DNA of 64,000 bases from Streptomyces sp. PCS3-D2 (GTDB lineage: Bacteria; Actinomycetota; Actinomycetes; Streptomycetales; Streptomycetaceae). The notes below the pieces were generated by a model, which saw only the letters and a list, made by a program, of their open reading frames with translations, was not told the origin of the DNA and did not search any database. This document shows, piece after piece, positions 1-26,071 of this stretch (its first letter is position 1; the number at the start of each line of letters is the position of its first letter). Location: the NCBI RefSeq assembly GCF_000612545.2, contig NZ_CP097800.1, positions 744,001 through 808,000 of the forward strand, in the 5' to 3' direction. Made by a program: the position numbers and the translations under genes.

Positions 1-284
1 AGGATGGCGACGAAGGCGAGGGCGAGCATGTCGACGCGGCCGGTGGTGGTGCCGTCCTTGACCGACTCGACCAGGTGTCCCAGCAGTCGGGGGCCGATCA
101 GACTCGCCACCAGAGCCGCGGCGAACAGCAGGAAGGTCGCGGCCAGTCGGCAGCCCTCGCCGCGGAGGAAGACGCGGGTCCAGGCGCGGACCTCGGCCCG
201 GCCGGCGAGCGGGAGCCTGCCGCCGCCGGACGGTGCGGCGGCGGGGTCCGGGGCGGCTTCCAGGCGGGTGGGGGTGGTGGTCAT
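1..284 (-). CDS. ABC exporter half-transporter, N-terminal part (cut by window edge)
   Basis: The first 94 codons of a gene that runs off the left edge. It begins MTTTPTRLEAAPDP and reaches a hydrophobic stretch (ATFLLFAAALVASLIGP) followed by LLGHLVESV, the usual first transmembrane helix and elbow of a type-I ABC exporter. The ATG (282-284) overlaps the stop of the upstream ABC gene by four bases (ATGA), so the two are translationally coupled and probably form a heterodimeric exporter. In a streptothricin cluster the likely cargo is the antibiotic; this is inferred from position only. The ATP-binding domain is outside the window, so whether this partner carries the intact ATPase site cannot be seen. 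Confidence 0.75.
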   Translation of the reverse strand, partial: MTTTPTRLEAAPDPAAAPSGGGRLPLAGRAEVRAWTRVFLRGEGCRLAATFLLFAAALVASLIGPRLLGHLVESVKDGTTTGRVDMLALAFVAI

Positions 285-1972
285 GAGGGCACTCCTGCCG
301 GGCGGTCGGTGCCGCCGGGGGCGGACTCCGCGTCGAGGCGGACCACGTGGTCGGCGGCGGCTCGCCACAGTGGGCTGTCGGTGAGGACCACGGTGGTCCG
401 ACCCGAGCGCAGGGCGGCGACCCGGTCGACGATGCGGGCCTCGGTGTGGGCGTCGACCGAGGCGGTGGGGTCCTCCAGAATCAGCAGGTCGGGTGCCGCG
501 AACAGGGCGCGGGCGAGGATCAACCGCTGGCGTTGGCCGCCCGACAGGGCGCGGCCTCCCTCGTCCAGCCAGGCCTCCGGACCGCCGGGCAGGGCAGCGA
601 CGACGTCGGCGGCGTCGGCGGCGAACAGGGCCCGGTCCAGGGCCTCCCGCGAGCGGGCGGACCCGGCCGTCAGTTCCTCCCGTACGGTGCCGCTGAAGAG
701 GACGTCGGCCGGACCGGAGCGCAGCAGCCTGGCGGACAGCTCCTCGGGATCCGCCCGGTCCAGGGCTACCCCGCCGAGCCGGACGGCCGAGGGGCCGCCG
801 CGGGCGCCGGGGCGGCTGAGGCGGTCGGCGAGCTCGCCCGTACGGTCGGCGGGAGCGGTGACCACGGTGAGGCGGCCGGCGGCGGCGGTCAGGCCGGTGT
901 CCGCATCGGCCAGTGCGAGGGCCCCGGGCGGCAGGGCAACGGGATGGGCGGGGCGGACGGTCTCGGGGGCCAGCCGCAGCAGGTTGCAGACCCGGCCGGC
1001 CGCGACCTTGGCGAGGCTGAGGGTCTCGGCGGCTTCGGTGGCCGTGCTGACCGGCAGGGTGAGGAAGGCGGAGGCGCCGTAGAACGCGACGAGTTCACCG
1101 GCGGTGATGGTGCCGTTCAGGGCGAGACGGGCGCCGAGCCAGACGATGCCGACGGTGACCAGTCCCGGCAGGAGGACTCCGGCCGCCTGGAGCCAGGCCT
1201 CCATCCGGCCGGCCGACTCACCGGCCCGGCGCACCTGCTGGCTGGTGCGCCGGAAGCGCTCGGCGAAGCCGGCCTCTCCGCCGATGCCGCGCAGGATGCG
1301 CAGCCCGGCCACGATGTCGCCGGCCTGGGAGGTGGCGATGCCCATCTGCTCGCGCTGGGCTTCGTCGCGTTCCTGGAGGGGCCTCAGCAGGGGGCCGATC
1401 CCAAGGACGGCGGCGGGGACACCGATGAGCACGGCCAGCCCGAGGACCGGCGAGGTGAGGGTGAGGGCGACGGCCACCACCACGGCGGCGACCACCGCCC
1501 CGACGGTGCGGCCGACGACCTCGAAGGCGTTGCCGATGCTCTCCACGTCGGCCGTGGCGGAGGCGGCCACGTCCCCTGAGCGGGCCTTGCCGCGCAGGGT
1601 GGCGCCGAGCCGCACGACCTGACGCATCAGCACCCGGTGCGTGACCGACAGGGCGTGGGCCTCGGCGCCGACGGCGGCCTGGATGAGGCCGGCGCCGGCG
1701 AGGGCCTGGAGGAGGCCGAGGCCGAGGGCGAGCAGCGACCACAGGTAGAGCCCGGTCTGACCGGTGTTGCGCCCGGCTTCGTCGATGGCCCGCCCGAGGA
1801 CCAGCGGGATCAGCGCCAGGGGGACCATCCAGAGGGCGCCGAGCACAGCGGCGAGGACCAGCGGCCGGGGGCGGATCCGTGCCAGCCACCACAGGTAGGC
1901 CCAGGGGCCGCCGGCCTGCGCCTCGGGGACGGCGGCAGGGGCGACCGAGGCGTCGAAGAGTCGGTTGGTCAC
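281..1972 (-). CDS. ABC exporter half-transporter with degenerate ATP-binding domain
   Basis: A 563-residue fused transmembrane/nucleotide-binding protein of the type-I exporter class. The membrane domain spans roughly residues 35-330 and the nucleotide-binding domain about 340-555. The ABC signature LSGGQ is intact (about 476-480), but the Walker A loop is replaced by VTAPADRTGELADRL with no GxxGxGK(S/T). Walker B reads LLILED (about 496-501), with D and E swapped against the usual DE. The H-loop position reads LTDSP, without histidine. This looks like the catalytically dead half of a heterodimer whose partner starts at 284. The GTG start at 1972 was chosen because it overlaps the upstream stop (GTGA). 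Likely role: export of, and self-protection against, streptothricin. The role is inferred; the family is clear. Confidence 0.88.
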   Translation of the reverse strand: MTNRLFDASVAPAAVPEAQAGGPWAYLWWLARIRPRPLVLAAVLGALWMVPLALIPLVLGRAIDEAGRNTGQTGLYLWSLLALGLGLLQALAGAGLIQAAVGAEAHALSVTHRVLMRQVVRLGATLRGKARSGDVAASATADVESIGNAFEVVGRTVGAVVAAVVVAVALTLTSPVLGLAVLIGVPAAVLGIGPLLRPLQERDEAQREQMGIATSQAGDIVAGLRILRGIGGEAGFAERFRRTSQQVRRAGESAGRMEAWLQAAGVLLPGLVTVGIVWLGARLALNGTITAGELVAFYGASAFLTLPVSTATEAAETLSLAKVAAGRVCNLLRLAPETVRPAHPVALPPGALALADADTGLTAAAGRLTVVTAPADRTGELADRLSRPGARGGPSAVRLGGVALDRADPEELSARLLRSGPADVLFSGTVREELTAGSARSREALDRALFAADAADVVAALPGGPEAWLDEGGRALSGGQRQRLILARALFAAPDLLILEDPTASVDAHTEARIVDRVAALRSGRTTVVLTDSPLWRAAADHVVRLDAESAPGGTDRPAGVPS

Positions 1973-3567
1973 AGGTACCGGTCCCGGGTGCCCGCACGGT
2001 CGACCTTCCCGGTACGCGTGTGCACCAGCTCGGGCACGGCGACGATCCGGTCGGGCACGAGGGGGCCGGGGACGGCGGCCCGCAGTTGCTCGCGCAGGGC
2101 CGCGGCGTCGTCGTCGGCGCGCTGTCCGCCGGCCACCGGGTCCGGTTCCCGCGGCACGCCCCGTACGCCGACTGCCCCGGGACCCCCGGTCACCCCCGTC
2201 CGGTCGGTCGTCCCGGTCGTTTCGGGCGCGAGGACCACGAAGGCGACCAGGACCGTGTGCTCGCCCTTGGCGTGCGCCACGGCGGCGACGGCGGTGACGC
2301 CGGGAAGCCGCCCCACGGCTCCTTCGACGTCCAGCAGGTCCACGCGATGCCCGCGGATTTTGACCTGGTGGTCGATGCGTCCGTGGAAGACGAGCGAACC
2401 CTCGGCGTCCTCGGTGACGAGGTCTCCGGTGCGGTACCACCGGTCGGTGCCGCTGCCGGGGTCGGTTTCGACGAACCGGGCGGCGGTGCGCTCGGGGTCG
2501 TCGACGTACCCGGTGGCCAGTTGGGGTCCGGCCACGAGGAGTTCGCCGGGCCCGTGCGGCACGTCGGGCCGGGACACCACGGCCTGCCGGACGGAAGGCA
2601 GCGGTCGACCGATCGGTACACCGTCCGGGAATGCCGCGGCCGCACCCGGGCCGGCGAGCACGGCGCTATGGGTGACCAGCGCGGTTTCGGTGGACCCGTA
2701 GGTGTTGAGCAGGACGACGTGGTCGGCGCCGAGCCGCCGCCAGCGCTCCAGCATGTCCGGCCGGACGGCCTCGCCGCCGATCACGACGGTCTCGACGGAG
2801 CCGGGCAGGGCGCGGCCGGTGTCGAGCAGATGGCCGGTGTAGAGGTGCCAGTAGTCGACGGGCAGGTTGACGAGGGTGACCTCGTGGTCGGTCAGGACCC
2901 GGTCGAGGTCGGCCTCACTGTCCTCGTCGAGGATGACGAGCCCGCCGGCCAGCAGGGTCGGCAGGATCTCCTCCAGGCTGGTGTCGCCGTCCGCCCGGTG
3001 GAAGTTGAGCGCCACCGTGCCGGGGCCGACCCCGTACTGCCGGCCCAGGTGCGGCAGGACCGCGTGGAGGGCGCCGTGCGGGACGACGGCCGCCTTGGGG
3101 GCGCCGGTGGAGCCGGAGGTGAACAGGACGTAGGCCGGGTCCTGCGGCCGGACCGACTCGCCGGCCTCGGGCAGGGGCGCTTTGGAGCGGCCCCAGTTGG
3201 GCCGCAGGACGCGGTCGACGGCGGGCAGCCGGCCGGACTCGGCGGTGGCGACCAGCTCCCGACAGCCGAGTGCGCGCAGGGCTGCCTCGGTGTGCTCGAC
3301 CGGCTCGTCGGCGAGGGGGACGTAGCCCCGGCCGGCGGCCAGGACGCCGAGGACCGCCGCGATGTCGCGGACGCTGTGGTGCGTCTGGACGGCCACCACC
3401 GGTCGGCCGGCCGCCGGGCCGCGGGCGGCCACGAGGTCCGCGACCGCCCCTGCCCAGCGGGCCAGCTGGCCGTATCCGACGGTCACGCCGTTGTCGACGA
3501 CGGCGGGCCGGTCCGGGTCCGAGCGGGCGATGGCGAAGAAGGGGTCCAGCATGCTGGGCAAGGTCAT
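1969..3567 (-). CDS. Stand-alone NRPS adenylation enzyme (beta-lysine elongation type, ORF 19-like)
   Basis: A 532-residue A domain with no fused carrier domain. Core motifs are present: A3 YVLFTSGSTGAPK (about 146-158), A5 YGSTET (290-295), A7 YRTGDL (378-383), A8 GRIDHQVKIRGHRVD and A10 TGKVDR near the C-terminus. It lies directly downstream of the T-C protein and is the nineteenth gene counting from the acetyltransferase. This matches ORF 19 of the published streptothricin system, a free-standing A enzyme that both activates beta-lysine and builds the beta-lysine chain on ORF 18. It is clearly paralogous to the A enzyme at 21355-22860 (shared PFFxxARxDPxRPAVVDNG start and TRDRYL end). The ATG at 3567 follows a GGAAG ribosome site. 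Specificity is inferred from synteny, not from a binding-pocket code. Confidence 0.92.
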   Translation of the reverse strand: MTLPSMLDPFFAIARSDPDRPAVVDNGVTVGYGQLARWAGAVADLVAARGPAAGRPVVAVQTHHSVRDIAAVLGVLAAGRGYVPLADEPVEHTEAALRALGCRELVATAESGRLPAVDRVLRPNWGRSKAPLPEAGESVRPQDPAYVLFTSGSTGAPKAAVVPHGALHAVLPHLGRQYGVGPGTVALNFHRADGDTSLEEILPTLLAGGLVILDEDSEADLDRVLTDHEVTLVNLPVDYWHLYTGHLLDTGRALPGSVETVVIGGEAVRPDMLERWRRLGADHVVLLNTYGSTETALVTHSAVLAGPGAAAAFPDGVPIGRPLPSVRQAVVSRPDVPHGPGELLVAGPQLATGYVDDPERTAARFVETDPGSGTDRWYRTGDLVTEDAEGSLVFHGRIDHQVKIRGHRVDLLDVEGAVGRLPGVTAVAAVAHAKGEHTVLVAFVVLAPETTGTTDRTGVTGGPGAVGVRGVPREPDPVAGGQRADDDAAALREQLRAAVPGPLVPDRIVAVPELVHTRTGKVDRAGTRDRYL

Positions 3568-3599
3568 GGCAGGTGTCTTCCGGTCCGTCCGTGCGGCGG

Positions 3600-5357
3600 T
3601 CAGCGGGTGGGGGCCTCGGCGTCCGGCGCGCCGGGGGCGGCCAGGGCGTCCACGAGGGTGACGAGGGCATGGCGGTGGCGGGCGGCGAGCGCGCGTACGG
3701 TCGCCGCCTCGTGCAGGGCCGTAGAGTACCACCATTCGACGCGCAGGGCCCCGTCCTCCGTGGTGGCGATGACCTCGACGGCATGGGGGCGGGTCCAGTG
3801 CGGGGCGGTGATGTCTCCGACCGGTTCCGGGGCCACGTCCGGCAGGAGGGTGCCCAGGGGCAGGGTGTCGGCGTCGTCGCCCTCGAAGTCGTAGGAGACG
3901 TCGCTGGGCGGTGCGGCACGCAGCACGGCGGCGATCCGCGGCCGGCCGTGCCGGGCGAGCGCGCCGTGGCCCACGCCGCCGCCGGGGAGGGCGGCGAGGT
4001 GGCTCACGGTCGTGGCCAGGCGTTCGGCCGGGGTGGCGGCGGCCAGATCCAGGCGGACGGGGACGGTGGTGGTGAACCAGCCGGTGGTGCGGGCCAGATG
4101 GGTGTCCCCGACGGTCTCCTCGCGGCCGTGGCGCAGCACGTCCACGCGGACCGCGGGTTCGCCGAGCCGTTCGGCCAGGATCTCGCCCAGGGCGTGCAGG
4201 ACGAGGTCGCCGGCGTGGGCGCGGTGGGCGCGGGCCGCCGTCCGCAGGCGTGCGGTGAGCTCGGCGGGGAACTCCTCGCGGTGGATGGCCGCGGTGGCGG
4301 CGGTGTTCACGGCCCGCGGGTCGGCCACGGGGTGGTCCGGGGGCAGGGTGGCGGGGGTGCGGGCCACCTCGGTCCACCACTGCGCCTGCTCCTCCGCCTC
4401 GGGGGTGCGGGCGTGGGCCGCGAGGGCCCGCGCCCACTCCGGGTAGGCGGTGCCCTCGGTGGGCCACACGTCGTGGCGGCCCTGTTCGAGAGCGGTGTAC
4501 ACCTCCTCCAGGTCGGCGAGCAGGACGGACCAGGACACCATGTCGATCGCGATCTGGTGGATGACGATCAGCAGCCGGCCGGCCCGGGCGGGTCCCGCGT
4601 CGAAGCGGACGAATCGGGCCACGCGGCCCCGGCCCGGGTCCAGGGAGCGCTGTTCGACGGCGCAGCGCAGGGCGACCGCGGCCGAGAGGTCGGCGTCGGC
4701 CAGCTCGGAGACGTCGACGGTGTCGAGCGCTGCTCCGAGGGCGGCGCCGGGCGGACCGTCGGTGTCCAGAGCGGCGGTCTGCTGCCGGGGGCGACGGGCC
4801 GGGCGGTCCTCGACGGCCAGCCGGAGCGAGGCGTGGCCGGCGACGAGCCGGCGGACGGCCTCGGCGAACAGGCCGGGGTCGATCCCCGGTTTGGTGGTGA
4901 AGAGCAGGGCCTGGTTCCACTGGCCGCGCTCGCCGGTCTGCTCCTCCCACGCCTGTTCCTGGGAGGGGGTGAGGACGACGGGCCCGTGGGCGGCGCCGGG
5001 CGGGGCGGTCTCGGCCCCGCCGCGCAGGGCGGCCCGCCCGGCGACGAGCGCGGCGAGCCCGGCGGTGGTCAGCCCGGGGGCGAACATCTCGCGCAGCTGT
5101 ACCCGTACGCCGAAGGACGCCTCGATGCGGCGGGCGGTGCGGATCAGGTCGAGGGAGTCCACGCCGAGGTCGATCAGCGGGCCGGTGGGGTCGGCACCGG
5201 GGTCGAGCACGGCTTCGGCGAGCCAGCCCGCGAGCAGGGCGCGGATCTCCTCCTCGGGCGGGCCTCCGGGGGCGGTGGCCCCGGCCCGGGCGTCGGGGTC
5301 CGCGACCTCGGGGTCCGGGGCGCCGGGGGCGCCCTGCTGCCGTACCGGGGCGGTCAC
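3600..5357 (-). CDS. NRPS thiolation-condensation didomain protein (ORF 18-like)
   Basis: A 585-residue protein. Residues about 33-110 form a peptidyl-carrier domain with the phosphopantetheine serine in LGVDSLD (S68). Residues about 125-560 form a condensation/epimerisation-superfamily domain, with supporting motifs VLRHGRE and TTGWFTT. In the published streptothricin system the matching protein (ORF 18) carries the beta-lysine chain and its C domain transfers the chain to the free streptolidine-gulosamine intermediate. The catalytic motif here reads HQIAIDMVSW (267-276) instead of HHxxxDGxSW: the second histidine is glutamine and the glycine is methionine. The GTG at 5357 overlaps the carbamoyltransferase stop; 32 bases separate its stop from the A enzyme. 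Confidence 0.9.
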   Translation of the reverse strand: MTAPVRQQGAPGAPDPEVADPDARAGATAPGGPPEEEIRALLAGWLAEAVLDPGADPTGPLIDLGVDSLDLIRTARRIEASFGVRVQLREMFAPGLTTAGLAALVAGRAALRGGAETAPPGAAHGPVVLTPSQEQAWEEQTGERGQWNQALLFTTKPGIDPGLFAEAVRRLVAGHASLRLAVEDRPARRPRQQTAALDTDGPPGAALGAALDTVDVSELADADLSAAVALRCAVEQRSLDPGRGRVARFVRFDAGPARAGRLLIVIHQIAIDMVSWSVLLADLEEVYTALEQGRHDVWPTEGTAYPEWARALAAHARTPEAEEQAQWWTEVARTPATLPPDHPVADPRAVNTAATAAIHREEFPAELTARLRTAARAHRAHAGDLVLHALGEILAERLGEPAVRVDVLRHGREETVGDTHLARTTGWFTTTVPVRLDLAAATPAERLATTVSHLAALPGGGVGHGALARHGRPRIAAVLRAAPPSDVSYDFEGDDADTLPLGTLLPDVAPEPVGDITAPHWTRPHAVEVIATTEDGALRVEWWYSTALHEAATVRALAARHRHALVTLVDALAAPGAPDAEAPTR

Positions 5358-7087
5358 GCGCCGGCCTCCCCCGGGAATCCGGCGGGACGGCGTATCAGGA
5401 ACGGGCCGAGGGCGAGGGCGTCCAGCGGCAGCCGGTGGAAGGTGGCGAGGGCGTCGCGGGGGCTGCACACGACCGGCTCGTCACGGCCGTTGAAGGAGGT
5501 GTTCATGATGACGGGGGTCCCGGTGTGCCCGCCGACCGCGCCGATGAGGCGGTGGTAGAGCGGGTCGACCGCGGCCGAGACGGTCTGCGGGCGGGTGGTG
5601 CGGTCGCTGTGGACGACGGCGGGCATGGCCGCGGCGCCGGCCTCGGTGACGGGCGTGGTGACGATCATGTAGGGCAGGGGGGTGGCGGTGCCGATCAGGG
5701 CCTCGGCGGCCTCCTCCTGCATGCTCGGCGCGAACGGCCGCCAGGCCTCGCGGTCCTTGATGCGTACGTTGACCCGGTCGCGGGTGGACTCCGGGTCGGG
5801 TACGGCGACCAGGCTGCGGTGTCCCAGGGCGCGCGGGCCGCCCTCGGCACGGCCCTGGAACCAGCCCGAGACCCCGCCCGCGGCCAGTACGTCGGCGGTG
5901 GCGGCGGCGATGTCGGAGGGCTCGGTGTAGGAGGTTCCGGAGGCGTCCAGGATCCGGCGGATCTCGTCGGGGGACCACTGCGGGCCCCAGGCGACCGAGC
6001 CGTCCATGGGCCGGATGCGGTCGCCCTCCTGGGCGGCGACCCAGACCGCGGCGCCGAGCGACACGCCCTGATCGCCGGCGAGGGGCTGCACGAAGAGGTC
6101 GTGGACCTCGGGCATCCGCATGATCTTGCCGTTGAGGGTGGCGTTGAAGCCGACGCCACCGGCGATCAGCAGCGTGGTCTCGCCGGTCTCCCGGAGCAGG
6201 CCGCGGACCAGCCCCATGACGGCGCGCTCCAGCGCGGCCTGGGCGGTGGCGGCGATGTCGCGGTACTCGAAGGGGTCCCGGTCGGTGACCCTGGCGTAGC
6301 GGCCGGTGCTGGGGTCGAAGCGGCGCACCCGGTGGTTGGGGGTCTCGGGGAGGGTCTTCTCCAGGTGCTCCATCCAGTACCGGATGGTGGCGGTCTCCTC
6401 GTCCGTGGTGCCCGTGGAGCGCAGGTCGGGAGGGACGACGCCGATGGTGAAGTCCTCGTCGGTGAAGCCGAAGGCGCCGCCGAAGCCCAGGTCGCCGGGG
6501 GTGCCGTAGGAGGCCAAGCCCATCATCTTGCCCGCGGCGTCGGCGCCGAGGCCGGCGTACTCGCAGACGGCGGCGTAGAAGTAGCCCAGCGACCAGCCCG
6601 GGGTGTGCGCGCGCAGTGTCTTGATCTCGCCGTCGATGCCGACGGCGAGGGTGGTGCTCTCGTTCTCTCCCTGGCCGTCCAGGACGAGGATCGCGCCGCG
6701 GTCCCGGCCGGAGAGGTGGTAGGCGCTGGCGGCGTGCGCGATGTGGTGGTTGACGAAGGTCAGCCGCGGGTCGCGGGTCCGCGGGAAGAGCGCCTTGGGC
6801 AGGAGGTGTTCGAGGGCGGCCGCTTCGCTGTCGAACCAGTCAAGCCCGCGATCCGCGAACAGGGTCGGCAGGTCCCAGCCGTGGGCGACCACGTCGATGT
6901 CGTCCAGGGTGAGACCGCCCTCCGCGAGGCAGTGGGCGGCCGCGTGGAGGGGCGCTTCACCGTAGGCGTGCTTGTTGCGGGTGAAGCGTTCCTCCTCGGC
7001 GAGGGCGATGACCTCGCCGTCCACGACGAGGCAGGCGGCACCGTCGTGGCTGGCGCCGGGCCAGCCGTTGACTCCGAGCACACGCAT
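5354..7087 (-). CDS. O-carbamoyltransferase (NodU/CmcH family)
   Basis: A 577-residue member of the NodU/TobZ/CmcH carbamoyltransferase family, the usual full length. The N-terminal Kae1-like domain shows the metal and nucleotide residues NHHIAHAASAY (about 113-123) and VLDGQGE (about 135-141). The C-terminal YrdC-related part includes GRAEGGPRALGHRS. These enzymes move a carbamoyl group from carbamoyl phosphate, via carbamoyl-adenylate, onto a hydroxyl. Streptothricin carries one carbamoyl ester on its gulosamine, so this enzyme most likely installs it. The ATG at 7087 (MRVLGVNGW) was preferred to an in-frame upstream start at 7114 because the family begins at this sequence and TTGGGGA lies just before it. 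Confidence 0.93.
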   Translation of the reverse strand: MRVLGVNGWPGASHDGAACLVVDGEVIALAEEERFTRNKHAYGEAPLHAAAHCLAEGGLTLDDIDVVAHGWDLPTLFADRGLDWFDSEAAALEHLLPKALFPRTRDPRLTFVNHHIAHAASAYHLSGRDRGAILVLDGQGENESTTLAVGIDGEIKTLRAHTPGWSLGYFYAAVCEYAGLGADAAGKMMGLASYGTPGDLGFGGAFGFTDEDFTIGVVPPDLRSTGTTDEETATIRYWMEHLEKTLPETPNHRVRRFDPSTGRYARVTDRDPFEYRDIAATAQAALERAVMGLVRGLLRETGETTLLIAGGVGFNATLNGKIMRMPEVHDLFVQPLAGDQGVSLGAAVWVAAQEGDRIRPMDGSVAWGPQWSPDEIRRILDASGTSYTEPSDIAAATADVLAAGGVSGWFQGRAEGGPRALGHRSLVAVPDPESTRDRVNVRIKDREAWRPFAPSMQEEAAEALIGTATPLPYMIVTTPVTEAGAAAMPAVVHSDRTTRPQTVSAAVDPLYHRLIGAVGGHTGTPVIMNTSFNGRDEPVVCSPRDALATFHRLPLDALALGPFLIRRPAGFPGEAGA

Positions 7088-7156
7088 GATCAGTCCCCAA
7101 GGGTCGGTCGGCATCCGCCGGATCCGCCTCGGGCCCGTGGGGCGCTCGGCGTCCGG

Positions 7157-7771
7157 TCACGCCAACGGATCTTGTCGGTCCGACGGGTTGTACACGACCT
7201 GGGAGTTTGTGCGGAGATCCGCGGCGAAGATAGCGGACGCCGCCTTCAGCACCGCGTTGGCGTGCCGCAGTTGCTCGACCTCGCGGCGCAGCCGCCGCAG
7301 TTCGGCCCGCTCGTCGGCGGTCAGCGCGCTCTGGGCGGGGCGGCGCGCGGCGGCGACGGGCGGGGCGACGGCGCGGGCCGCGGCGCCCGGCTCGGTCCGT
7401 CGGGCCGCGGCGGCGGAAGCGCCCGCTCCGGGGCGGCGGCCGGCCGTCGGCCGGGTGGGGGGCAGGCCGTTCCCCGGCTGGCCCCGGACGGGGACATCGC
7501 GTCCTTCCAGGGCCGCGCTGAGGCGGTACCAGCGGCGGGTCCACGCTTCCGGATCGCCCTCGCAGGCGGCCACGTAGGCGAGCGTCACCTTCAGGGAGGG
7601 CTTGTGCAGTCCGCGGGCCGCCTCGGCGAGGGTGGCCACGGAGTAGTGGGCTCGTTGCGCCATGATCCGGTAGGAGGGGTTCCCGGCCTGCTTGCGCAGA
7701 GCGCGCAAGGTGTGGGCGAACTCCTCCAGCGGTCCGGCTGTGGGGTCTAACAACCGCTCTGGCCTGGGCAT
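7157..7771 (-). CDS. XRE-like regulator with IS3-OrfA-like leucine-zipper tail; TTA codon at position 8
   Basis: A 204-residue putative DNA-binding regulator. Residues about 12-75 resemble an XRE-type helix-turn-helix (FAHTLRALRKQAGNPSYRIM, then YSVATLAEAARG). The middle is Pro/Ala/Arg-rich. The end (about 152-190) is a heptad segment, LRRLRREVEQLRHANAVLK followed by AASAIFAADL, very like the zipper end of IS3-family OrfA transposases. ATG at 7771 is preceded by GGGGAGAGG; the longer reading to 7840 has no such site. Codon 8 is TTA (7748-7750), the rare leucine codon read by the bldA tRNA, so translation is likely tied to development. It is divergent from lysine 2,3-aminomutase and the only regulator in the cluster part seen, so probably the pathway-specific regulator (inference). 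Confidence 0.8.
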   Translation of the reverse strand: MPRPERLLDPTAGPLEEFAHTLRALRKQAGNPSYRIMAQRAHYSVATLAEAARGLHKPSLKVTLAYVAACEGDPEAWTRRWYRLSAALEGRDVPVRGQPGNGLPPTRPTAGRRPGAGASAAAARRTEPGAAARAVAPPVAAARRPAQSALTADERAELRRLRREVEQLRHANAVLKAASAIFAADLRTNSQVVYNPSDRQDPLA

Positions 7772-7823
7772 GCCTCTCCCCTGAATGTTCGACGGTGCCG
7801 GGTGAAGCGCCGGCTCTCCCGTG

Positions 7824-7833
7824 CCGTACAACC
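7824..7833. promoter_or_regulatory. Candidate regulator-binding decamer CCGTACAACC (copy 1)
   Basis: The decamer CCGTACAACC lies about 53 bases upstream of the XRE-like regulator start. The identical decamer recurs at 8160-8169 on the aminomutase side of the same divergent region, inside a long palindrome. Sharing between two divergent promoters suggests a binding site, possibly for the regulator itself. No experimental support can be seen in sequence. Confidence 0.35.
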
Positions 7834-8131
7834 TGGTCAACGGCGTACGGATCCGACACGAGAACCGGTCCGACGCGCCGGGCGCGACGGGAAACCATCA
7901 CACCGGATCTCTCGGACATTGGTACATGCCACTGACATATCCATCAATCTGCAATCGACGCTTCCGGCCACGCGGAGGGCGGTTCGTCCGAATGAGACTC
8001 CTCGCATCGAGACCGCCGCATCGTCCGTTCGCAAGCGTTCCCCGGACGTTCCCCTTCCCGCCCCGGAACGCCGCGCCGCGCGGGTGCCCGCCCGTTCGTT
8101 GCCCGCACAACCATCCGCCTTCGGCGGTCTT

Positions 8132-8167
8132 TTGTACAGGGGCACTCGGCCCGAGTGCCCCGTACAA
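8132..8167. promoter_or_regulatory. Imperfect 36-bp palindrome upstream of lysine 2,3-aminomutase
   Basis: TTGTAC-A-GGGGCACTCGG is mirrored around a single C (8150) by CCGAGTGCCCC-GTACAA; the arms match at 17 positions with one bulged A at 8138. The right arm carries the decamer CCGTACAACC, which is also found at 7824, and a further GTGTACAACG follows at about 8177. It sits about 85-120 bases before the proposed aminomutase start in the 480-bp regulator/aminomutase divergent region. It could be an operator or an RNA hairpin in the 5' leader. Confidence 0.5.
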
Positions 8168-13820: not shown

Positions 13821-13827
13821 CGCGCCG

Positions 13828-18599: not shown

Positions 18600-18656
18600 C
18601 GGGGCCCGAGGAGCGGGCCCGCCATACGCACACGAGTTCGACGAGGGAGAACTGAG

Positions 18657-19736
18657 ATGACCACCGAACCGGTGGACGAGGCGGCGGTCGAGAAGGGCAT
18701 CGCCCGGACCAGCGTGATCATCGCCCTGCGTGACGACCTGCGGATCGCCGACTGCATCGCCTCGATCGACGAGGACGTCGAGATCGTCCTGGCGCTCAAC
18801 GGCCCGAGCAACGCCGTCCTGAAACTGATCGCCGAGCACCCCCGCCCGCTGACCGTGACCGAGATCGAGGACGTCGGCAACCTCGGCGCCGCCTACAACG
18901 CGGGGGCCGCCGCCACCGACCGGCAGTACCTGCTGCTGATGGACTCCGACTGCGTCTTCGCCCCGGGGGTGGTCCGCGCCATGGTCCGCGCGGTGCTCAC
19001 CGACCCGGTGGTCAAGGGGCAGGTGGTGTACGGGGAGTCGGACGGGACACTGAGCAGACTCACCGCCCGTGTCAGGGAGTTCGACGAGGGCGACTACATC
19101 AGCGCGCTGTCCCCGCCGCTGATCTACAACCGCGACATCGTCGAGCACATAGGCGGCTACCACTTCGACGAGCTGATCCACTGGTGTGAGGACCGCGAGT
19201 TCGACTTCCGGCTCCAGCTGGCGGGCATCCCCGTGGTCTACCTTCCTCAGGCGCGGATCTTCCACGACGCGCAGCACGGCTTCGGCAACATGCGCAGCTA
19301 CTTCCGCTACGGCGTCGGCGAGGGCATCGCCCAGGAGACCGGCGTGTTCACCACGCCGGCAGTGCCGGTGGTGTGGCGACTGTTCGAGGCGTCGCGGACG
19401 CTGGTGCACTGCGCCCGCAACAAGGGTGTGGGTGCGGCGGCCTACTACGCGCTGCTGAAGGCGGCCTTCCACACGGGCACCGTCCACCACCTGCTCAACG
19501 ACCCGTACCAGGTGCGCGACCGCTACCCCGCCTCGGCGAAACGGGCGCGCATGGTGCGGTCGATCCCGCAGCACAGCACCAGGCTGAGCAGCGCCCAGCT
19601 GCGACGGCTGCGACGGGCCCACTGGGAGGCGGGCCGGCGGATCGAGAAGGTGGCCGACCTGTCGGTCTTCCACCCGGACGCCGCCGGCCCTGGCGGACCG
19701 TCAGTCGCCGGGCAGGCACGGCAGCAGCAGGCGTGA
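18657..19736 (+). CDS. Family-2 glycosyltransferase
   Basis: A 359-residue GT-A fold glycosyltransferase. It begins with TSVIIALRDD, has the GNLGAAYNAG loop and a DxD metal motif in LLMDSDCVF (D96, D98), then the acceptor-side HWCEDREFDFRLQLAG. Streptothricin has an N-glycosidic bond between the amino sugar and the streptolidine guanidine. This is the only glycosyltransferase in the visible cluster, so it most likely makes that bond, probably with UDP-GlcNAc. A GAGGGAGAACTGAG ribosome site precedes ATG 18657. Its 3' end overlaps the convergent CocE-type hydrolase gene by 36 bases. Confidence 0.88.
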   Translation: MTTEPVDEAAVEKGIARTSVIIALRDDLRIADCIASIDEDVEIVLALNGPSNAVLKLIAEHPRPLTVTEIEDVGNLGAAYNAGAAATDRQYLLLMDSDCVFAPGVVRAMVRAVLTDPVVKGQVVYGESDGTLSRLTARVREFDEGDYISALSPPLIYNRDIVEHIGGYHFDELIHWCEDREFDFRLQLAGIPVVYLPQARIFHDAQHGFGNMRSYFRYGVGEGIAQETGVFTTPAVPVVWRLFEASRTLVHCARNKGVGAAAYYALLKAAFHTGTVHHLLNDPYQVRDRYPASAKRARMVRSIPQHSTRLSSAQLRRLRRAHWEAGRRIEKVADLSVFHPDAAGPGGPSVAGQARQQQA

Positions 19737-21335
19737 AGGGTGGTCGCCGCCGTGATGGACGGTGTGGTGGGCGAGGACCCGCGGGTGGACGTCGAAGCGT
19801 GGCGCGTTGCTCGCCGCGATCTCCAGACGGATCCGGTGGCCCGCGCGGAACACGTGACCGACCGGACCCAGCGCGACGGTGACCTCGGCCGGCTCGCCGG
19901 GGGCGGATGCAGCATCCGCCCCCGGCGCCAGCCTGCGCACGCTGTCGCACAACAGCTCGGCCCGGCCGTCGGGGTGCACGTCGACGAGCTTGCCGGTCAC
20001 GTCGGCCCCCGCCGCGTCCGGGGTCACGTAGACCGTCAGGACGGTGTCGCCGATGACGGTCAGCGGCGCCGTGAGCCGTTCGCCCGTGAAGCACAGCACG
20101 TCGGCGCGCCCTTCCACCCCGCGCTGGTCCAACGGACCGCAGTCGCCGCCGGTGAACTGGCCAGGCAGCGCGGTGGCGCCGCCGGTGGTGGGCACCGGGT
20201 CGGCCGGATCGTGACGGATGCGGTCCGTTCCGGGGGCCTCCGGGGCGGGGCCGGGCGTCAAACCTCGGCCGCGGAGGTGCAGGACGAGGTCCCGGGTTCC
20301 GGGAACGGGCCAGTCGGGGAAGACGCGCCATGCATCGACGCCGGTGACGAACAGCCGCACCGGGTCGGCTGCCGGGACGTCGGGGCGCTGTCGCAGATGC
20401 CGATCGAAATGGTCCAGATGGAGACCGGTGACATCAATACTGCGTTCATCGGCCGCCAGTCCGTAACGGCGCTGCGGAAATATTCCGCCGGTGACGCAAT
20501 GGGACCACGGCCCGACCACCAGCTGCGACGGAGTTCCGCATTCACGAATTCCCCGGTAATTCTCCAGGGCTCCGGCGAGGAAAATGTCGTACCAGCCGGT
20601 GAGGTGGAGGACCGGGACGTCGACCGCCGCGTAGGACTCGCGCGGGGCGGCGCGCCGCCAGTACGGGTGGCCGCCCGGGTGCGCGCGCCACTGGCGGTAG
20701 TACGGGGCCAGCCGGTCCAGCAGGCCTGCGGCGGCGTCCGGGTCCCGGTAGAGCTCGTCGATCCGGTCGACGGCACGGGCCACCTCGTCCAGATCGGCCC
20801 CGGTCAGCCCGGCTCCCTCCAGCAGCAGGTCGTAGAGCACCCAGTACAGGACGAAGCCCAGCTGGAAGGCGCCGCCCTGCCGGGTCCAGCCCTCGTCGAA
20901 TCCCGATCCGGCCACGTGCGGGGCGATCGCGCCCAGGCCGGGCGGGCGTTCGGCCGCGGCGAGCAGTGCGGCCATCGCCTCGTACGAGCGGCCGAACAGG
21001 CCGGCCGAGCCGTCGCACCAGGGCTGCCCCACCGCCCAGGCAACGGTGTCCGCGCCGTCCGCCGCCTCGTGCCAGTACGGCTCGAAGGAGCCGTCGGAGC
21101 CGAACCGGCCGCGCACGTCCTGCACCAGCACGGCGTATCCGGAGCGGACCAGCCGCAGGCCGTCGACGGAGGCGCCACCCGGGCTGCCCGATTTCCCGTA
21201 GGGCGTCCGGCGCACGAGCACCGGCACAGGTCCTTCGACGTCGGGACGGTAGAGATCGGCACTCAATAAAGTCCCGTCACGCATGGGAATTTTCAGATCG
21301 TGTTCCACAATGATTCGCACCCGCCCATATTCCAT
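19701..21335 (-). CDS. CocE/NonD-type serine hydrolase with a TTA codon
   Basis: An about 544-residue hydrolase of the CocE/X-prolyl dipeptidyl peptidase class: a Peptidase_S15-type domain and a C-terminal jelly-roll domain. The nucleophile motif is GLFGRSYEAM (S117 with this start) and the histidine region is VVGPWSHCVTGG. The start is uncertain: ATG 21335 (MEYGRVRII), GTG 21320 and ATG 21284 are all possible, and none has a strong ribosome site. Codon 23 with the chosen start is TTA (21267-21269), a bldA-dependent codon. Local stretches are AT-richer than the neighbours. It may cleave a protecting group or the beta-lysine amide; the substrate is unknown. Divergent from the A enzyme with only 19 bases between proposed starts. 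Confidence 0.82.
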   Translation of the reverse strand: MEYGRVRIIVEHDLKIPMRDGTLLSADLYRPDVEGPVPVLVRRTPYGKSGSPGGASVDGLRLVRSGYAVLVQDVRGRFGSDGSFEPYWHEAADGADTVAWAVGQPWCDGSAGLFGRSYEAMAALLAAAERPPGLGAIAPHVAGSGFDEGWTRQGGAFQLGFVLYWVLYDLLLEGAGLTGADLDEVARAVDRIDELYRDPDAAAGLLDRLAPYYRQWRAHPGGHPYWRRAAPRESYAAVDVPVLHLTGWYDIFLAGALENYRGIRECGTPSQLVVGPWSHCVTGGIFPQRRYGLAADERSIDVTGLHLDHFDRHLRQRPDVPAADPVRLFVTGVDAWRVFPDWPVPGTRDLVLHLRGRGLTPGPAPEAPGTDRIRHDPADPVPTTGGATALPGQFTGGDCGPLDQRGVEGRADVLCFTGERLTAPLTVIGDTVLTVYVTPDAAGADVTGKLVDVHPDGRAELLCDSVRRLAPGADAASAPGEPAEVTVALGPVGHVFRAGHRIRLEIAASNAPRFDVHPRVLAHHTVHHGGDHPSRLLLPCLPGD

Positions 21336-21354
21336 CAGGACGAGGGAATTCACA

Positions 21355-22860
21355 ATGCACCCCTCAGGAATCCATTTCCTGGAACCGTTCTTCGAGACGG
21401 CACGTACCGATCCGGCCCGACCGGCCGTGGTCGACAACGGCCTCGTCGTCGGCTACGGCACCCTCGCCGCCTGGGTGCTGGAGGTGGCCGGCGCCGTCGC
21501 TCCCCGGACGGATCAGCCCCAACCTCCGGTCGGGGTCGTCGTGCACCATTCGGCCCGCGACGTGGCGGCCCTCCTGGGCGTTCTCGCGGCGGGCCGCGCC
21601 TACGTGCCCCTGGAGGCCGGTCACCCCGGAGCCCTCCTGGACTCCCTCCTGGCCCGGCTGGGGGTCTGCGAGGCCGTGGCAACGGCCGACGCCGGCTGGC
21701 AGCCGTCCGTCGCACGGCTGATCCGCCCGCGCTGGGCGCCGTCCCCGCCGACGCCCCCCGTGCTCCCCCGCTCCGGCGTATGCCCCGAGGATCCGGCGTA
21801 CGTGCTGTTCACCTCCGGTTCCACCGGCAGACCCAAGGGGGTCGTGGTTCCGCACCGGGCCCTGGCCGCCGTGGTGCCGCCGCTGCGCGCGCTGTACGGC
21901 ATCGGCCCGGACGCCACCGTGCTGCACTTCCACGGCGCCGGCGGCGACACGAGTCTGGAGGAGATCCTTCCCACCCTGACCGGCGGCGCCACCCTCGTCG
22001 TCGACGACGCGGCGCGCGAGGGCTTCGCGCAGGTCGCCACGGACCAGGAGGTCACCGTCGCGGTGCTGCCGACCGGATTCTGGTACAGCCTGACCGGTGA
22101 CCTGCTGGCGCAGGGCGCCGGCCTGCCCCCGTCCCTGCGTACGGTCGTGATCGGCGGGGAGGCGGTGCGCGCCGACATGCTGGCACGCTGGCGGCGGCTC
22201 GGCGCCCACGGCGTGCGGCTGCTCAACACCTACGGATCCACCGAGACGGCCCTGGTCACCCACGCCGCGCAGCTAGCCGGGCCGGGCGCGCCCGCACTGC
22301 CGGAGACGGGCGGGGACCTGCCCATCGGGCTGCCCTTGCCGCACGTCGGCCAGTACGTCGACGACACGGGCGAGTTGTACGTGTCCGGGCCGGGTCTGGC
22401 CCTCGGATACCACGCAGCCCCTGGGGCGACGGCGGCCAGGTTCACCGAGGACGGAGGAACCCGCTGGTACCGCACCGGGGACCGGGTCTCCGTGGCGCCC
22501 GGGGGTGCCCTGGTGTTCCAGGGCCGCTCCGACCACCAGGTCAAGATCCGCGGCCACCGGGTGGACCTGGTCGACGTGGAGGCTGTTGTCGGAAGCTGCG
22601 AGGGAGTCCGGGAGGTGGCGGCCGCACGGGTCGACCGGGCGGAACACAGCACGCTGGCCGCCTTCTTCGTGCCGCTCGCGGGCCACGACCCCCGCGAGGT
22701 GGCGGCGGACGTCCGGGCCCGGCTGGCCGACACGGCGGCCCCGCACCTGGTGCCCAGCCTGCTGGTACCGGTCGGGGAACTGGAGCGCACCCACACCGGC
22801 AAGGTGGACCGCAACGCCACCCGGGACCGGTACCTGCCCACGACCGGGGAGGGGCGATGA
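21355..22860 (+). CDS. Stand-alone NRPS adenylation enzyme (beta-lysine loading type, ORF 5-like)
   Basis: A 501-residue free-standing A domain with A3 YVLFTSGSTGRPKG, A5 YGSTET, A7 WYRTGDR, A8 GRSDHQVKIRGHRVD and A10 HTGKVDR. It is the fifth gene counted from the acetyltransferase, matching ORF 5 of the published streptothricin system, which adenylates the first beta-lysine and loads it on the T domain of ORF 18. It is paralogous to the A enzyme at 1969-3567: both contain GDTSLEEILPTL and end in TRDRYL. ATG at 21355 follows GACGAGGGA; an in-frame ATG at 21283 lacks support. The stop overlaps the next start (ATGA). Confidence 0.92.
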   Translation: MHPSGIHFLEPFFETARTDPARPAVVDNGLVVGYGTLAAWVLEVAGAVAPRTDQPQPPVGVVVHHSARDVAALLGVLAAGRAYVPLEAGHPGALLDSLLARLGVCEAVATADAGWQPSVARLIRPRWAPSPPTPPVLPRSGVCPEDPAYVLFTSGSTGRPKGVVVPHRALAAVVPPLRALYGIGPDATVLHFHGAGGDTSLEEILPTLTGGATLVVDDAAREGFAQVATDQEVTVAVLPTGFWYSLTGDLLAQGAGLPPSLRTVVIGGEAVRADMLARWRRLGAHGVRLLNTYGSTETALVTHAAQLAGPGAPALPETGGDLPIGLPLPHVGQYVDDTGELYVSGPGLALGYHAAPGATAARFTEDGGTRWYRTGDRVSVAPGGALVFQGRSDHQVKIRGHRVDLVDVEAVVGSCEGVREVAAARVDRAEHSTLAAFFVPLAGHDPREVAADVRARLADTAAPHLVPSLLVPVGELERTHTGKVDRNATRDRYLPTTGEGR

Positions 22861-23915
22861 ACGCCGCGACCGGCGCCGCGGGGACGGCATCCGGGGGCGT
22901 GCCGGAGGCACCCGCCGAGGCAGCGCGACCTGTCGGATCGGCAGCCGCGCCGGAACGGGCCCTGCCCGGGTCCACCGCGCCTGACGTGGCGGACTCCGGT
23001 GCCGGCGCCGACCGGTCGGAGCTCGCCGCGTACGCCTCCCGCCGCCTGGGCGTGTCCCTCGACCCCGCGACCGCCCGCGCCGACGAGAGCGGCTGGGACT
23101 TCCGGGTCACGCACGTCCGCGCGGCCGACGGCACCTGGTGGATCCTGCGCCAGCCGCGCCGGTCCGAGGCCTCCCGGCAACTGGCCTTCGAGGGTGCGGC
23201 CTTGGCCGCGGTGCGCGGTCGGACGCCCGTGCCGGTACCCGACTGGTGCCTCCACGGCCCGGACCTGGTCGCCTATCCCCGCCTGCCCGGCGAGGCGGCG
23301 GGCACCGAGGATCCCCGCACTCTGGTCTACCGCTGGTCCATCGACCCGCTGTCCCACCCCGGCCGCTACCTGGAACCCCTGGCCCGGGCCCTGGTCGCGG
23401 TCCACACGACGGCGCTGGACAGCTCCCCCGTCCTCGCGAGCCGGGGCCAGGCGGACCCCGGCACCGTGCGCACCCGGATCGCGGACCGGCTCGCCCGGGC
23501 CCGCGCCGAACTCCCGCTCCCCTCGGCCGGGCTGCGGCGCTGGAGGACCTGGTTGGACGACGACCGGCTGTGGCCCGATCGACTGGCCCTCGTCCACGGC
23601 GACGTACACCCCGGGCACACCCTGGTGGTGCGCCCGGACGCCGGCCCGCCCACCCTGTCGGGGCTGCTGGACTGGGCCAATGCCGATGTCGGCGATCCGG
23701 CCGTCGACTTCGTCGACATGCTGTACGCCGGCGGCCCCGCCGTCCTGGACCGGCTCCTGGACGCCTACCGGACGGCGGGCGGCGAGGTGCGCGACGGCAT
23801 GCGGGCGCACATCCTGGCCCGGGCCTCCTTCCTCTGGGTCCACGTGGCGCTGCGGGGCCTGGACACCGGCCGCCCCGCATGGGTGGAGACGGCCCTGCGC
23901 AGGATGGCGCCGTGA
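22857..23915 (+). CDS. Aminoglycoside/macrolide-type phosphotransferase
   Basis: A 352-residue APH-fold kinase. The catalytic loop is HGDVHPGHTL (H247, D249) and the metal motif is LDWANADVGDPAVDF. About 50 low-complexity residues precede the kinase lobe; it overlaps the A gene by four bases. APH-type enzymes in antibiotic clusters often phosphorylate an intermediate to keep it inactive in the cell, with a phosphatase or hydrolase removing the group later. Here the substrate could be the gulosamine or streptolidine hydroxyl. No phosphatase was recognised nearby, but two hydrolases are. The family is sure; the role is inferred. Confidence 0.83.
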   Translation: MNAATGAAGTASGGVPEAPAEAARPVGSAAAPERALPGSTAPDVADSGAGADRSELAAYASRRLGVSLDPATARADESGWDFRVTHVRAADGTWWILRQPRRSEASRQLAFEGAALAAVRGRTPVPVPDWCLHGPDLVAYPRLPGEAAGTEDPRTLVYRWSIDPLSHPGRYLEPLARALVAVHTTALDSSPVLASRGQADPGTVRTRIADRLARARAELPLPSAGLRRWRTWLDDDRLWPDRLALVHGDVHPGHTLVVRPDAGPPTLSGLLDWANADVGDPAVDFVDMLYAGGPAVLDRLLDAYRTAGGEVRDGMRAHILARASFLWVHVALRGLDTGRPAWVETALRRMAP

Positions 23916-24778
23916 GGGGCCCGGCGCCGAACCCGCGGCCGACCCAGGACACGGCGCGTTCCGCGCACAGGACGGGACGCACCCCCGGCGGGACGGCGTA
24001 CACCCGCCACGGAACGGGGGACCTTCCGGTCGTGCTGGTCGCGGGCGGGGGCGGCGCGGGACGGATCTGGGAACACCACCAGGTGCCGGCGCTGACCGCC
24101 GCGGGCCGACAGGTGGTCACCTTCGACCACGGGCCGACGGCGGTCGCCGGAGCGGCCGAACTGGCCGCCCGGACACGGGAGCTGCTGATCTCCCTCGATC
24201 TGCCGCCCTGCCCGCTGGTCGGTCACTCCCTCGGCGCCCTCGCCGTCCAGGAGCTGCTCGTGACCGATCCGCATCTGGCGACCGGGGCGCTGCTCACGGC
24301 GACCCGCGGCCGACCCGACCCGGTGGCGGAGGCCCTGGCCCGCGCGGAGGCCGCGTCCGCCGGAACGGGAAACCGCCCGCCGCCGGAGTACGAGGCCTTC
24401 GTCAGCCTGGTGCAGAACCTCTCTCCCCGGACGCTGGCCGACGAGCACGCGGTCGCAGAATGGCTCGACTTGTTCGAACTCGCGGCGCTGACCGGCGCAT
24501 CACCCGCGAAGCGACCGGGCCGGCCGATCGCCGACCGGCTGGCCGACTACGGCCGGATCCGCGTCCCCGTGCTGGTTCTGGGATTCGCCGACGACGTCCT
24601 GGCACCCGCCCCGCTGGGCCGGGAGGTCGCCGCCGCGATTCCGGGAGCCCGGTACACGGAGCTGCCGGACACCGGCCACCTCGGGTTCCTGGAACGGCCC
24701 GAGGCCTTCAACAGCGTCCTGCTGGAGTTCCTCACCACCCTGGCCCCGACCGACCCCGGAGTGTCCCATGCCCCTTGA
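23912..24778 (+). CDS. Alpha/beta hydrolase
   Basis: A 288-residue alpha/beta-hydrolase-fold protein. The nucleophile elbow is VGHSLGA (S106), the acid is likely in GFADDVLAP (about 227-235) and the histidine is in DTGHLGF (about H256). The oxyanion region is VVLVAGGGGAGRIWEHH. GTG at 23912 overlaps the kinase stop (GTGA). It may act as a type-II thioesterase editing the carrier domains or as a late-stage esterase/amidase; the sequence does not decide. It is co-transcribed with the A enzyme, kinase and the next gene. Confidence 0.8.
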   Translation: MRGPAPNPRPTQDTARSAHRTGRTPGGTAYTRHGTGDLPVVLVAGGGGAGRIWEHHQVPALTAAGRQVVTFDHGPTAVAGAAELAARTRELLISLDLPPCPLVGHSLGALAVQELLVTDPHLATGALLTATRGRPDPVAEALARAEAASAGTGNRPPPEYEAFVSLVQNLSPRTLADEHAVAEWLDLFELAALTGASPAKRPGRPIADRLADYGRIRVPVLVLGFADDVLAPAPLGREVAAAIPGARYTELPDTGHLGFLERPEAFNSVLLEFLTTLAPTDPGVSHAP

Positions 24779-25520
24779 CCCCCGCACCCCCGTCACCTCG
24801 GAGATCGAGGTCGTCCACGTCGGCCAGGAGCCCCCGGACTCCTGGGCCGCGGCCGTGTACCTGTGCGGCCCGACCCCCGCCGACCCCGCCGAACCGTCGT
24901 GGCGGCCGGGCGCCGTCGATGCGCTGCGATCCGCGTGGTCCGGTGCCGGACGCCTGGTGGTGTTCCTGCCCGAACCGGTCCCCGGCGGCGGCTACCCGGC
25001 GTACGGGGACCAGATCGCATGGGAGGAGGACGCCATGCGCCGGTCCGACGTCATCCTGTTCTGGATCCCCCGCGCCATGGCCACGCTGCCCGGCCTGGTG
25101 TCCAACATCAAGTGGGGCTCGTGGTGCGACTCGGGCCGCGCCGTGCTCGGTGCGCCGCCGGAGGCCGAACGCATGGCCTACCTGCTCCACTTCGCCGACG
25201 CCCTGGGGGTGCCGGTGGAGCGGACGCCGGCGGGTGCGGCCGAGGCCGCGCTGCGCGCGGTCGGGCCGGGCTGCGCGCGCAGCGGTGGCGAGCGGGCGGT
25301 ACCGCTGACGGTGTGGCGGACCAGGCCGTTCCGGACGTGGTACGCCGCACGCCGCGAGGCCGGGGACCGGCTGCTGGACGCGCGCGTGGAGTGGTACACA
25401 CCCACGGCCGGGCCGGACGGGCCCGCGTGGCTGCTGACCGCCACCGTCGCGCCCGCCGACGGCTCCCGCCCCGCCGTGGTCCGCCTGCTGGCTGCTCAGG
25501 GACAGGGCATGCTCATGTAG
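24768..25520 (+). CDS. Nucleoside 2-deoxyribosyltransferase-like protein
   Basis: A 250-residue protein whose first about 140 residues match the nucleoside 2-deoxyribosyltransferase-like fold: AAVYLCGPTP, then VVFLPEP and DQIAWEEDAMRRSDVILFWI (about 81-100), with the usual acidic residues (E86, E87) and a following PR. The C-terminal about 100 residues (WRTRPFRTWYAARREAGDRLL) are not assigned to a family. It overlaps the hydrolase gene by 11 bases and ends convergently with the acetyltransferase (25-base overlap). Enzymes of this fold break or form N-glycosidic bonds. Streptothricin contains an N-glycosidic bond but is not a nucleoside, so a role in making, editing or repairing that bond is possible but speculative. 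Confidence 0.7.
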   Translation: MPLDPRTPVTSEIEVVHVGQEPPDSWAAAVYLCGPTPADPAEPSWRPGAVDALRSAWSGAGRLVVFLPEPVPGGGYPAYGDQIAWEEDAMRRSDVILFWIPRAMATLPGLVSNIKWGSWCDSGRAVLGAPPEAERMAYLLHFADALGVPVERTPAGAAEAALRAVGPGCARSGGERAVPLTVWRTRPFRTWYAARREAGDRLLDARVEWYTPTAGPDGPAWLLTATVAPADGSRPAVVRLLAAQGQGMLM

Positions 25521-26071
25521 AGCGCCTGCTCACCCTCGGATTCGGTGCCCAGGTACAGGGCGGTGTCCAAGCCGCAGAGGGAGAAGCCCATCCGCCGGTA
25601 GGCGTGGATGGCCGGGGCGTTGACGTTGGTCACCTCCAGCCAGACGTGCCCGGCGCCCTGCTCCCGGGCGAAGTCCAGCACGTGTCCCATCAGGGTGCGG
25701 CCGACACCCCGGCCCCGATGGTCGGCAGCGATCTCGATGTCCTCGATGGTCAGTCGCCGGTTCCACGGGGAGTAGGAGACGGCGGCGAAGCCGACGAGTG
25801 CCCCGGCCGGGTCGACGGCCACGAAGGTGCGGCTGTCGTCGCCCTCGGCGTCCGTCTCCGCGCCGTCCCCCTCGTCTCCTCCGTCATCCTCGGGGAACAC
25901 CTTGACCAGCGGCGGATCCACGGGAACCTCGCGGAGGGCGAAGCCGTCGCCGGTGACGGCCACTTCGAAGACCGTGCTGGTGGTGAACGACCCGTCGACG
26001 GCCTCGATGGCCTCGGTGTCCTCGGGGCGGGCGATGCGGTACTCGTACGTCGTGTCATTGATCGTGGTCAT
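25496..26071 (-). CDS. stat: Streptothricin N-acetyltransferase (self-resistance)
   Basis: A 191-residue GNAT enzyme very close, as I remember it, to the Streptomyces lavendulae streptothricin acetyltransferase: start MTTxxxxTYExRxARPxD, DGSFTTSTVFEV, an acidic linker (EDDGGDEGDGAETDAEGDD), TIEDIEIAADHRGRGVG (acetyl-CoA site), WLEVTNVNAPAIHAYRRMGF and end ALYMSMPCP. It acetylates the beta-lysine amino group of streptothricin and so protects the producer. It marks the right edge of the cluster and is the strongest evidence for its product. Transcribed on its own towards the cluster; ATG at 26071. Confidence 0.95.
   Translation of the reverse strand: MTTINDTTYEYRIARPEDTEAIEAVDGSFTTSTVFEVAVTGDGFALREVPVDPPLVKVFPEDDGGDEGDGAETDAEGDDSRTFVAVDPAGALVGFAAVSYSPWNRRLTIEDIEIAADHRGRGVGRTLMGHVLDFAREQGAGHVWLEVTNVNAPAIHAYRRMGFSLCGLDTALYLGTESEGEQALYMSMPCP

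Follow-up and report, generated by a model that had tools for sequence, protein, structure and literature searches.

The 64,000-nucleotide stretch of Streptomyces sp. PCS3-D2 analysed here (C1:744001-808000, in a host genome of 7.63 Mb and three contigs; the whole stretch is called the window) almost certainly carries, together with a short overhang on its left, a complete streptothricin biosynthetic cluster of the beta-lysine type, as judged from homology, motifs and gene order. Genes were called on the window and a further 15 kb leftward, and 21 of them make up the cluster, spanning window coordinates -1566 to 26071 (27,638 bp), position 0 being the base immediately left of the window, so that the overhang measures 1567 bases. 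Genes are numbered by counting leftward from the acetyltransferase gene (orf1). The cluster is complete and apparently intact; it repeats a well-known pathway in the published arrangement and is not novel. Because the putative chain-elongating gene orf19 is present and open, the likely product is predicted to be a mixture of streptothricins forming a beta-lysine ladder.

Gene order and relatives

A search with orf12 over the contigs of 128 relatives kept 80 loci; all 80 were compared, and the first 26 are listed. Fourteen of the listed loci (L009-L022) are streptothricin clusters by content, with orf12 proteins 85-97% identical to that of the window among the matches listed. Ten of the fourteen were joined across the whole cluster and the remaining four lie on short contigs. 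Order and orientation were the same in all ten joined genomes, which belong to named Streptomyces: seven hold all 21 genes, two lack orf19 and one lacks orf1. Since the 21 genes keep their order and orientation in seven of the ten, and the other three each lack one gene, a chance arrangement is excluded. This co-linearity bears out the preliminary description of the window, which had proposed a streptothricin cluster with the published gene order. The genes for the stand-alone adenylation (A) enzymes, the thiolation-condensation (T-C) protein, the aminomutase, the carbamoyltransferase, the deacetylase and the glycosyltransferase align one to one with those of other Streptomyces clusters.

The closest comparison with a producer is Streptomyces sp. 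fd2-tb (S. yangpuensis; L010/L113/L114), which is reported to produce streptothricin and whose cluster counts 27,803 bp and 21 open reading frames (ORFs) (PMC4626613). All 21 genes were found there in the same order and orientation, so that gene content and order equal those of a reported producer's cluster, and DNA identity to window positions 1 to 26071 is 91.8% over 25,978 aligned columns (DNA identities were computed without overlapping pieces). The two differ in that fd2-tb lacks the peroxiredoxin gene found on the right in the window, and in protein identities of 66% for orf3 and 86% for orf5 and orf19. S. amritsarensis MTCC 11845 (L009) is closer at the DNA level (94.0% over 17,166 aligned columns), with 87-97% protein identity for the genes of a 17-kb stretch among the matches listed, but is represented by draft contigs on which the cluster is not joined across. 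Streptomyces sp. TP-A0356 (L019) has 21 of 21 genes co-linear, with DNA identity of only 82.3%; heterologous expression of its streptothricin cluster is reportedly the subject of a paper, as the title indicates. A fragment of S. rochei NRRL B-2410 (L014) spans orf12 to orf4 with unchanged gene order, the matches listed being 64-90% identical.

The left cluster edge, orf21 (-1566..284, minus strand), lies outside the window, as the preliminary description had anticipated, and the right edge is orf1 (25496..26071, minus strand). A peroxiredoxin gene adjoins orf1 on the right in the window and was present in none of the stretches of the ten joined relatives; left-hand neighbours, judged from gene calls only, also vary. 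Because the flanking genes vary among relatives, the block from orf21 to orf1 was taken as the cluster.

Elsewhere in the genus, one member (G110) has matches to 21 of 21 genes, orf21 being truncated where the stretch ends. A close orf12 occurs in three of 150 genus genomes, the host's own included; one of the other two (G024) was taken to be Streptomyces sp. CB03234 and not counted again. A passage of PMC11702664 states that nearly 4% of Streptomyces genomes carry a streptothricin cluster. The strain is predicted to make a known antibiotic and should be dereplicated early, which matters little for the window itself. The possibility that the genome holds a further streptothricin cluster was rejected, other matches to the T-C protein being at most 33% identical.

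Nonribosomal peptide synthetase proteins and family matches

Counting from the acetyltransferase, the nonribosomal peptide synthetase (NRPS) proteins stand at positions 5 (A), 13 (A-T), 18 (T-C) and 19 (A). The available text of PMC11546977 describes the same set for the published cluster: ORF5 as a stand-alone A enzyme, ORF13 as A plus PCP, ORF18 as C plus PCP and ORF19 as a stand-alone A enzyme. With the acetyltransferase as number 1, the four positions coincide; that text does not state which gene is ORF1, and the agreement is positional. The preliminary description had placed stand-alone A enzymes at 5 and 19 and the T-C protein at 18, all of which hold, but had counted three NRPS proteins, where a fourth exists, the A-T protein orf13 (10824..12659, plus strand). 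The same source reports that in the ORF18 C domain HQxxxDM replaces HHxxxDG; orf18 (3600..5357, minus strand) carries HQIAIDM at residue 267, together with the T motif LGVDSL, and HQxxxDM was found in all 11 orf18 proteins examined.

The acetyltransferase recognised earlier at 25496-26071 was recovered at exactly these coordinates as a 191-amino-acid protein matching the STAT model NF000487 over its full length (329.3 bits). Among solved structures it lies nearest to 7ypu (named Acetyltransferase) and 5c82 (Nourseothricin acetyltransferase). The lysine 2,3-aminomutase-like protein, the OrfP-type hydroxylase, the OrfR-type cyclase, the carbamoyltransferase and the deacetylase, which the preliminary description had listed as the expected chemical parts, were likewise all found by domain or family matches.

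Some observations weigh against the streptothricin assignment. The published cluster has 24 ORFs according to the part of PMC11546977 available, compared with 21 here, perhaps through a difference in how the edges were drawn. The NF000487 score of orf1 lies below the cutoff of 420 of what is an allele-level model, and the KamA-family matches of orf15 all fall under their curated cutoffs. Moreover, the residue-level comparison used clusters other than the S. rochei records AB684619/AB684620. An orf15 is present in 12 of the 14 streptothricin loci, and there the gene at the same place is 86-97% identical to that of the window among the matches listed.

Comparison with viomycin-type enzymes

Hydroxylase and cyclase genes are shared with viomycin- and capreomycin-type (tuberactinomycin) clusters, and orf12 (12786..13820, plus strand) and orf14 (9703..10827, plus strand) do exceed the NCBIfam VioC and VioD equivalog cutoffs, as would be expected if the window held a cluster of that kind. 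Closer comparison makes such an origin extremely improbable. All 344 residues of orf12 align with 4m23 (entry name L-arginine beta-hydroxylase) at 729.7 bits, against at most 278.3 bits for VioC-type chains. All 374 residues of orf14 align with 4m2j (entry name Aminotransferase) at 747.2 bits, the next chain scoring 124.4. We take 4m23 to be OrfP and 4m2j to be OrfR; the two proteins fit these structures far better than any other solved chain. As a VioD chain is absent among the four chains listed for orf14, four non-streptothricin loci (L026, L030, L031 and L034) served for the VioD-like comparison: among the matches listed, orf14 is 41-44% identical in these, whereas the streptothricin loci with an orf14 (12 of 14) give 80-95%. 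In tuberactinomycin clusters a cyclic pentapeptide is assembled by multimodular NRPS; the four NRPS proteins here, with only A, A-T or T-C domains, are not multimodular. The viomycin/capreomycin assignment was rejected on these sequence comparisons. The hydroxylase and cyclase are of the OrfP and OrfR types as opposed to VioC and VioD, and the better fit to viomycin-type enzymes that the preliminary description had named as speaking against streptothricin was not found, orf12 and orf14 favouring 4m23 and 4m2j.

Proposed biosynthetic route and self-protection

The route outlined here is drawn from homology, motifs and gene order, and individual catalytic steps are taken from work on relatives or from inference. 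Arginine would be oxidised by orf12, a predicted Fe/2-oxoglutarate arginine hydroxylase, and the product cyclised toward streptolidine by the pyridoxal phosphate (PLP)-type enzyme orf14. Streptolidine formation is probably assisted by the A-T protein orf13, by the ATP-grasp amino-acid ligase-like protein orf8 (17358..18599, plus strand) and by the GNAT-like protein orf11 (13828..14577, plus strand). The family 2 glycosyltransferase orf7 (18657..19736, plus strand) would attach an N-acetylated amino sugar, which orf10 (14646..16673, plus strand), a GFO/IDH/MocA oxidoreductase fused with an SDR epimerase, probably epimerises to the gulo form, gulosamine. Deacetylation of the sugar is ascribed to the PIG-L/LmbE deacetylase orf9 (16670..17374, plus strand) and its carbamoylation to the NodU-type carbamoyltransferase orf17 (5354..7114, minus strand). 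Streptolidine formation, glycosyl transfer and deacetylation in this pathway are reportedly the subject of earlier papers, going by reference titles.

The side chain would begin with the conversion of lysine to beta-lysine by orf15 (8327..9646, plus strand), a lysine 2,3-aminomutase-like protein of the KamA family with a CxxxCxxC motif. The stand-alone A enzyme orf5 (21355..22860, plus strand) is then expected to load beta-lysine onto the T domain of orf18; loading of beta-lysine by ORF5 on the ORF18 T domain is said to have been described by Maruyama in 2012. On that T domain the chain would be lengthened by orf19 (1969..3567, minus strand), a stand-alone A enzyme which by homology is the beta-lysine chain-elongating enzyme, and the C domain of orf18 would transfer the chain to the sugar. 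The accessible text of PMC9606270 has ORF19 mediating chain growth (2-7 units) on ORF18-held beta-lysine, and that of PMC11546977 has the ORF18 C domain joining the beta-lysine chain to streptothrisamine. The start of orf19 at 3567 was picked from the MTLPS start common to relatives, the gene caller having placed it at 3552.

Acetylation of the drug by orf1 would provide self-protection. Export is attributed to the ABC half-transporters orf20 (281..1972, minus strand; 563 amino acids, LSGGQ signature present, Walker A absent) and orf21 (616 amino acids, Walker A present, LSGGQ signature absent), which may pair as an exporter having a single composite ATP site. In a pattern search of 11 clusters, Walker A was missing from orf20 and present in orf21 in all 11; LSGGQ was missing from orf21 in all 11 and present in orf20 in 10, S. 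noursei being the exception. Such complementary motif gaps fit a heterodimer in which one ATP site works. An excerpt of PMC6804068 lists one acetyltransferase and two transporters as the supposed self-resistance genes of the cluster, a list that fits orf1, orf20 and orf21.

Any roles proposed for orf2, orf3, orf4, orf6, orf8, orf10, orf11, orf13 and orf16 are putative. Among these, orf2 (24768..25520, plus strand) encodes a nucleoside 2-deoxyribosyltransferase-like protein, orf3 (24032..24778, plus strand) an alpha/beta hydrolase and orf6 (19701..21335, minus strand) a CocE/NonD (S15) hydrolase; the orf6 start at 21335 is an upstream ATG giving 544 amino acids, in place of the gene-caller start at 21227.

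Natural losses of orf19 and a cluster without orf1

Within the 14 named genomes, orf19 is kept in 12 and lost in two, S. lavendulae CCM 3239 (L016) and Streptomyces sp. CB03234 (L017), whose clusters have 20 of 21 genes co-linear and lost orf19 through two different deletions. The spacing between the orf20 and orf18 matches is 171 bases in CCM 3239 and 469 in CB03234, as against 1571-1750 in the other nine sequences, the window included. The gap in CB03234 holds an internally deleted orf19 remnant of which only the two ends are kept, and in both genomes the sole orf19 match at E 1e-60 falls on orf5. Because the chain-elongating enzyme has been lost, both strains are predicted from their sequences to make streptothricin F only and should make no longer chains. 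Against this prediction, another S. lavendulae strain reportedly yields a beta-lysine-rich product, going by a reference title, so that the strain matters. A review suggests, in the passage available, that pure streptothricin F may offer a better therapeutic window than mixtures.

The two natural losses among 14 named clusters also lend some weight to the reading that the cluster of the window is a genuine streptothricin cluster that in this strain is not expressed or yields streptothricin F alone. We regard this as unlikely, although worth keeping in view: orf19 is open and full length, with motifs A3, A5, A7, A8 and A10, called reading-frame lengths are comparable to those in relatives, and TTA codons are absent from the called genes lying wholly inside window positions 1-27000, a scope that excludes orf21 and the start extensions.

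S. lavendofoliae JCM 4391 (L018/L111) presents the converse case, with 20 of 21 genes co-linear and orf19 present, but no streptothricin acetyltransferase in the cluster. The best acetyltransferase matches in its whole genome are at most 37% identical, and a decayed acetyltransferase beside orf2 was rejected, no remnant being found there. The gene to the right of orf2 in this strain resembles a transporter by eye. An acetyltransferase match of at least 69% identity occurs in 13 of the 14 named genomes. The natural orf19-null and acetyltransferase-less variants are of moderate interest, more than the window itself, whose interest is low.

Acetyltransferase-like genes also occur away from the cluster. 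The host genome carries a second streptothricin-acetyltransferase-like gene at C1:6852009-6852560 (L002, L006; 75% DNA identity), far from the cluster, and its surroundings (about 21 kb, read by eye) bear no resemblance to it. Homologues with 64-67% protein identity, likewise away from the cluster, were seen in G001, G002 and G014, and one also in G016.

Probable scaffold genes and the beta-lysine module

Core genes were found without beta-lysine genes in the stretches read from NBRC 110468, S. pyxinicus (L024), Streptomyces sp. P3 (L023/L028) and a Pseudonocardiales metagenome-assembled genome (L027). A 49-kb stretch of NBRC 110468 (L025+L120/L121) matches 13 genes (orf2, 3, 4, 6, 7, 8, 9, 10, 11, 12, 13, 14 and 17), the orf10 counterpart being split into two genes. 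This stretch has no match at E 1e-3 to orf1, 15, 16, 18, 20 or 21, and matches orf5 and orf19 at only 33-36%; it encodes other proteins in their place, and on visual reading some of them look like methyltransferases and NRPS parts. Fewer genes are matched at the remaining core-like loci, which are shorter or broken. In S. pyxinicus the core genes are accompanied by extra proteins resembling, by eye, NRPS parts or methyltransferases, and the P3 loci appear broken.

Loci of this kind bring up glycine-type streptothricins, similar to BD-12 and citromycin, in which the amino acid would be added by a transfer RNA (tRNA)-dependent Fem-like enzyme; in the BD-12 type such a transferase replaces the beta-lysine NRPS, according to the part of the source available. 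Although the same core enzymes are found in loci without beta-lysine genes, it is scarcely conceivable that the window belongs to this type. It holds the aminomutase, both stand-alone A enzymes and the T-C protein, in contrast to NBRC 110468 with its distant A enzymes and no orf15 or orf18 match, and family searches gave a Fem-like match in none of orf1-orf19. The glycine-type assignment was rejected, all beta-lysine genes being present.

Set beside NBRC 110468, the beta-lysine-type cluster of the window divides into a probable scaffold set and a beta-lysine module. This division leaves fewer conceivable roles for orf2, orf3, orf4, orf6, orf8 and orf11. The core-only loci possibly direct the synthesis of streptothricin-like compounds with a different side chain.

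The orf4 kinase and orf16

An uncharacterised APH/Mph-type kinase is encoded by orf4 (22857..23915, plus strand). Among solved proteins it is closest to macrolide 2'-phosphotransferases (159.2 bits), and its HGD and LDW motifs are present in all 13 proteins aligned, from 11 beta-lysine clusters and two core-only loci. The gene is kept in the S. lavendofoliae cluster, which is without the acetyltransferase. As a tentative suggestion from sequence, orf4 might phosphorylate the streptothricin core, the phosphate serving as a protecting group during biosynthesis or giving a second means of self-protection besides acetylation, and possibly being removed by a cluster hydrolase. Two observations argue against phosphorylation by orf4: an orf4 match is absent from the core-like stretches L027 and L028, and, as concerns resistance, a review passage relates that a producer's inactivating fraction was active with acetyl-CoA and not with ATP. 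The portions of the review literature searched name no phosphotransferase in a streptothricin cluster.

The conserved 204-amino-acid protein encoded by orf16 (7157..7771, minus strand) has matches in all ten joined relatives, in two pieces in two of them. Pfam gave no match at E 1, and NCBIfam gave a weak match to an IS3 transposase (E 0.0025) over a C-terminal stretch, the N-terminal part being conserved. Structure prediction gave a low-confidence model (mean pLDDT 61.6) with a helical N-terminal part and a long C-terminal helix, and a fold search of the PDB returned nothing at E 0.001 or better, the best hits being designed proteins (E 3.0). That orf16 acts as a regulator is a guess. Homologues of orf16 were also seen near VioC-like genes in L049, L050 and L071.

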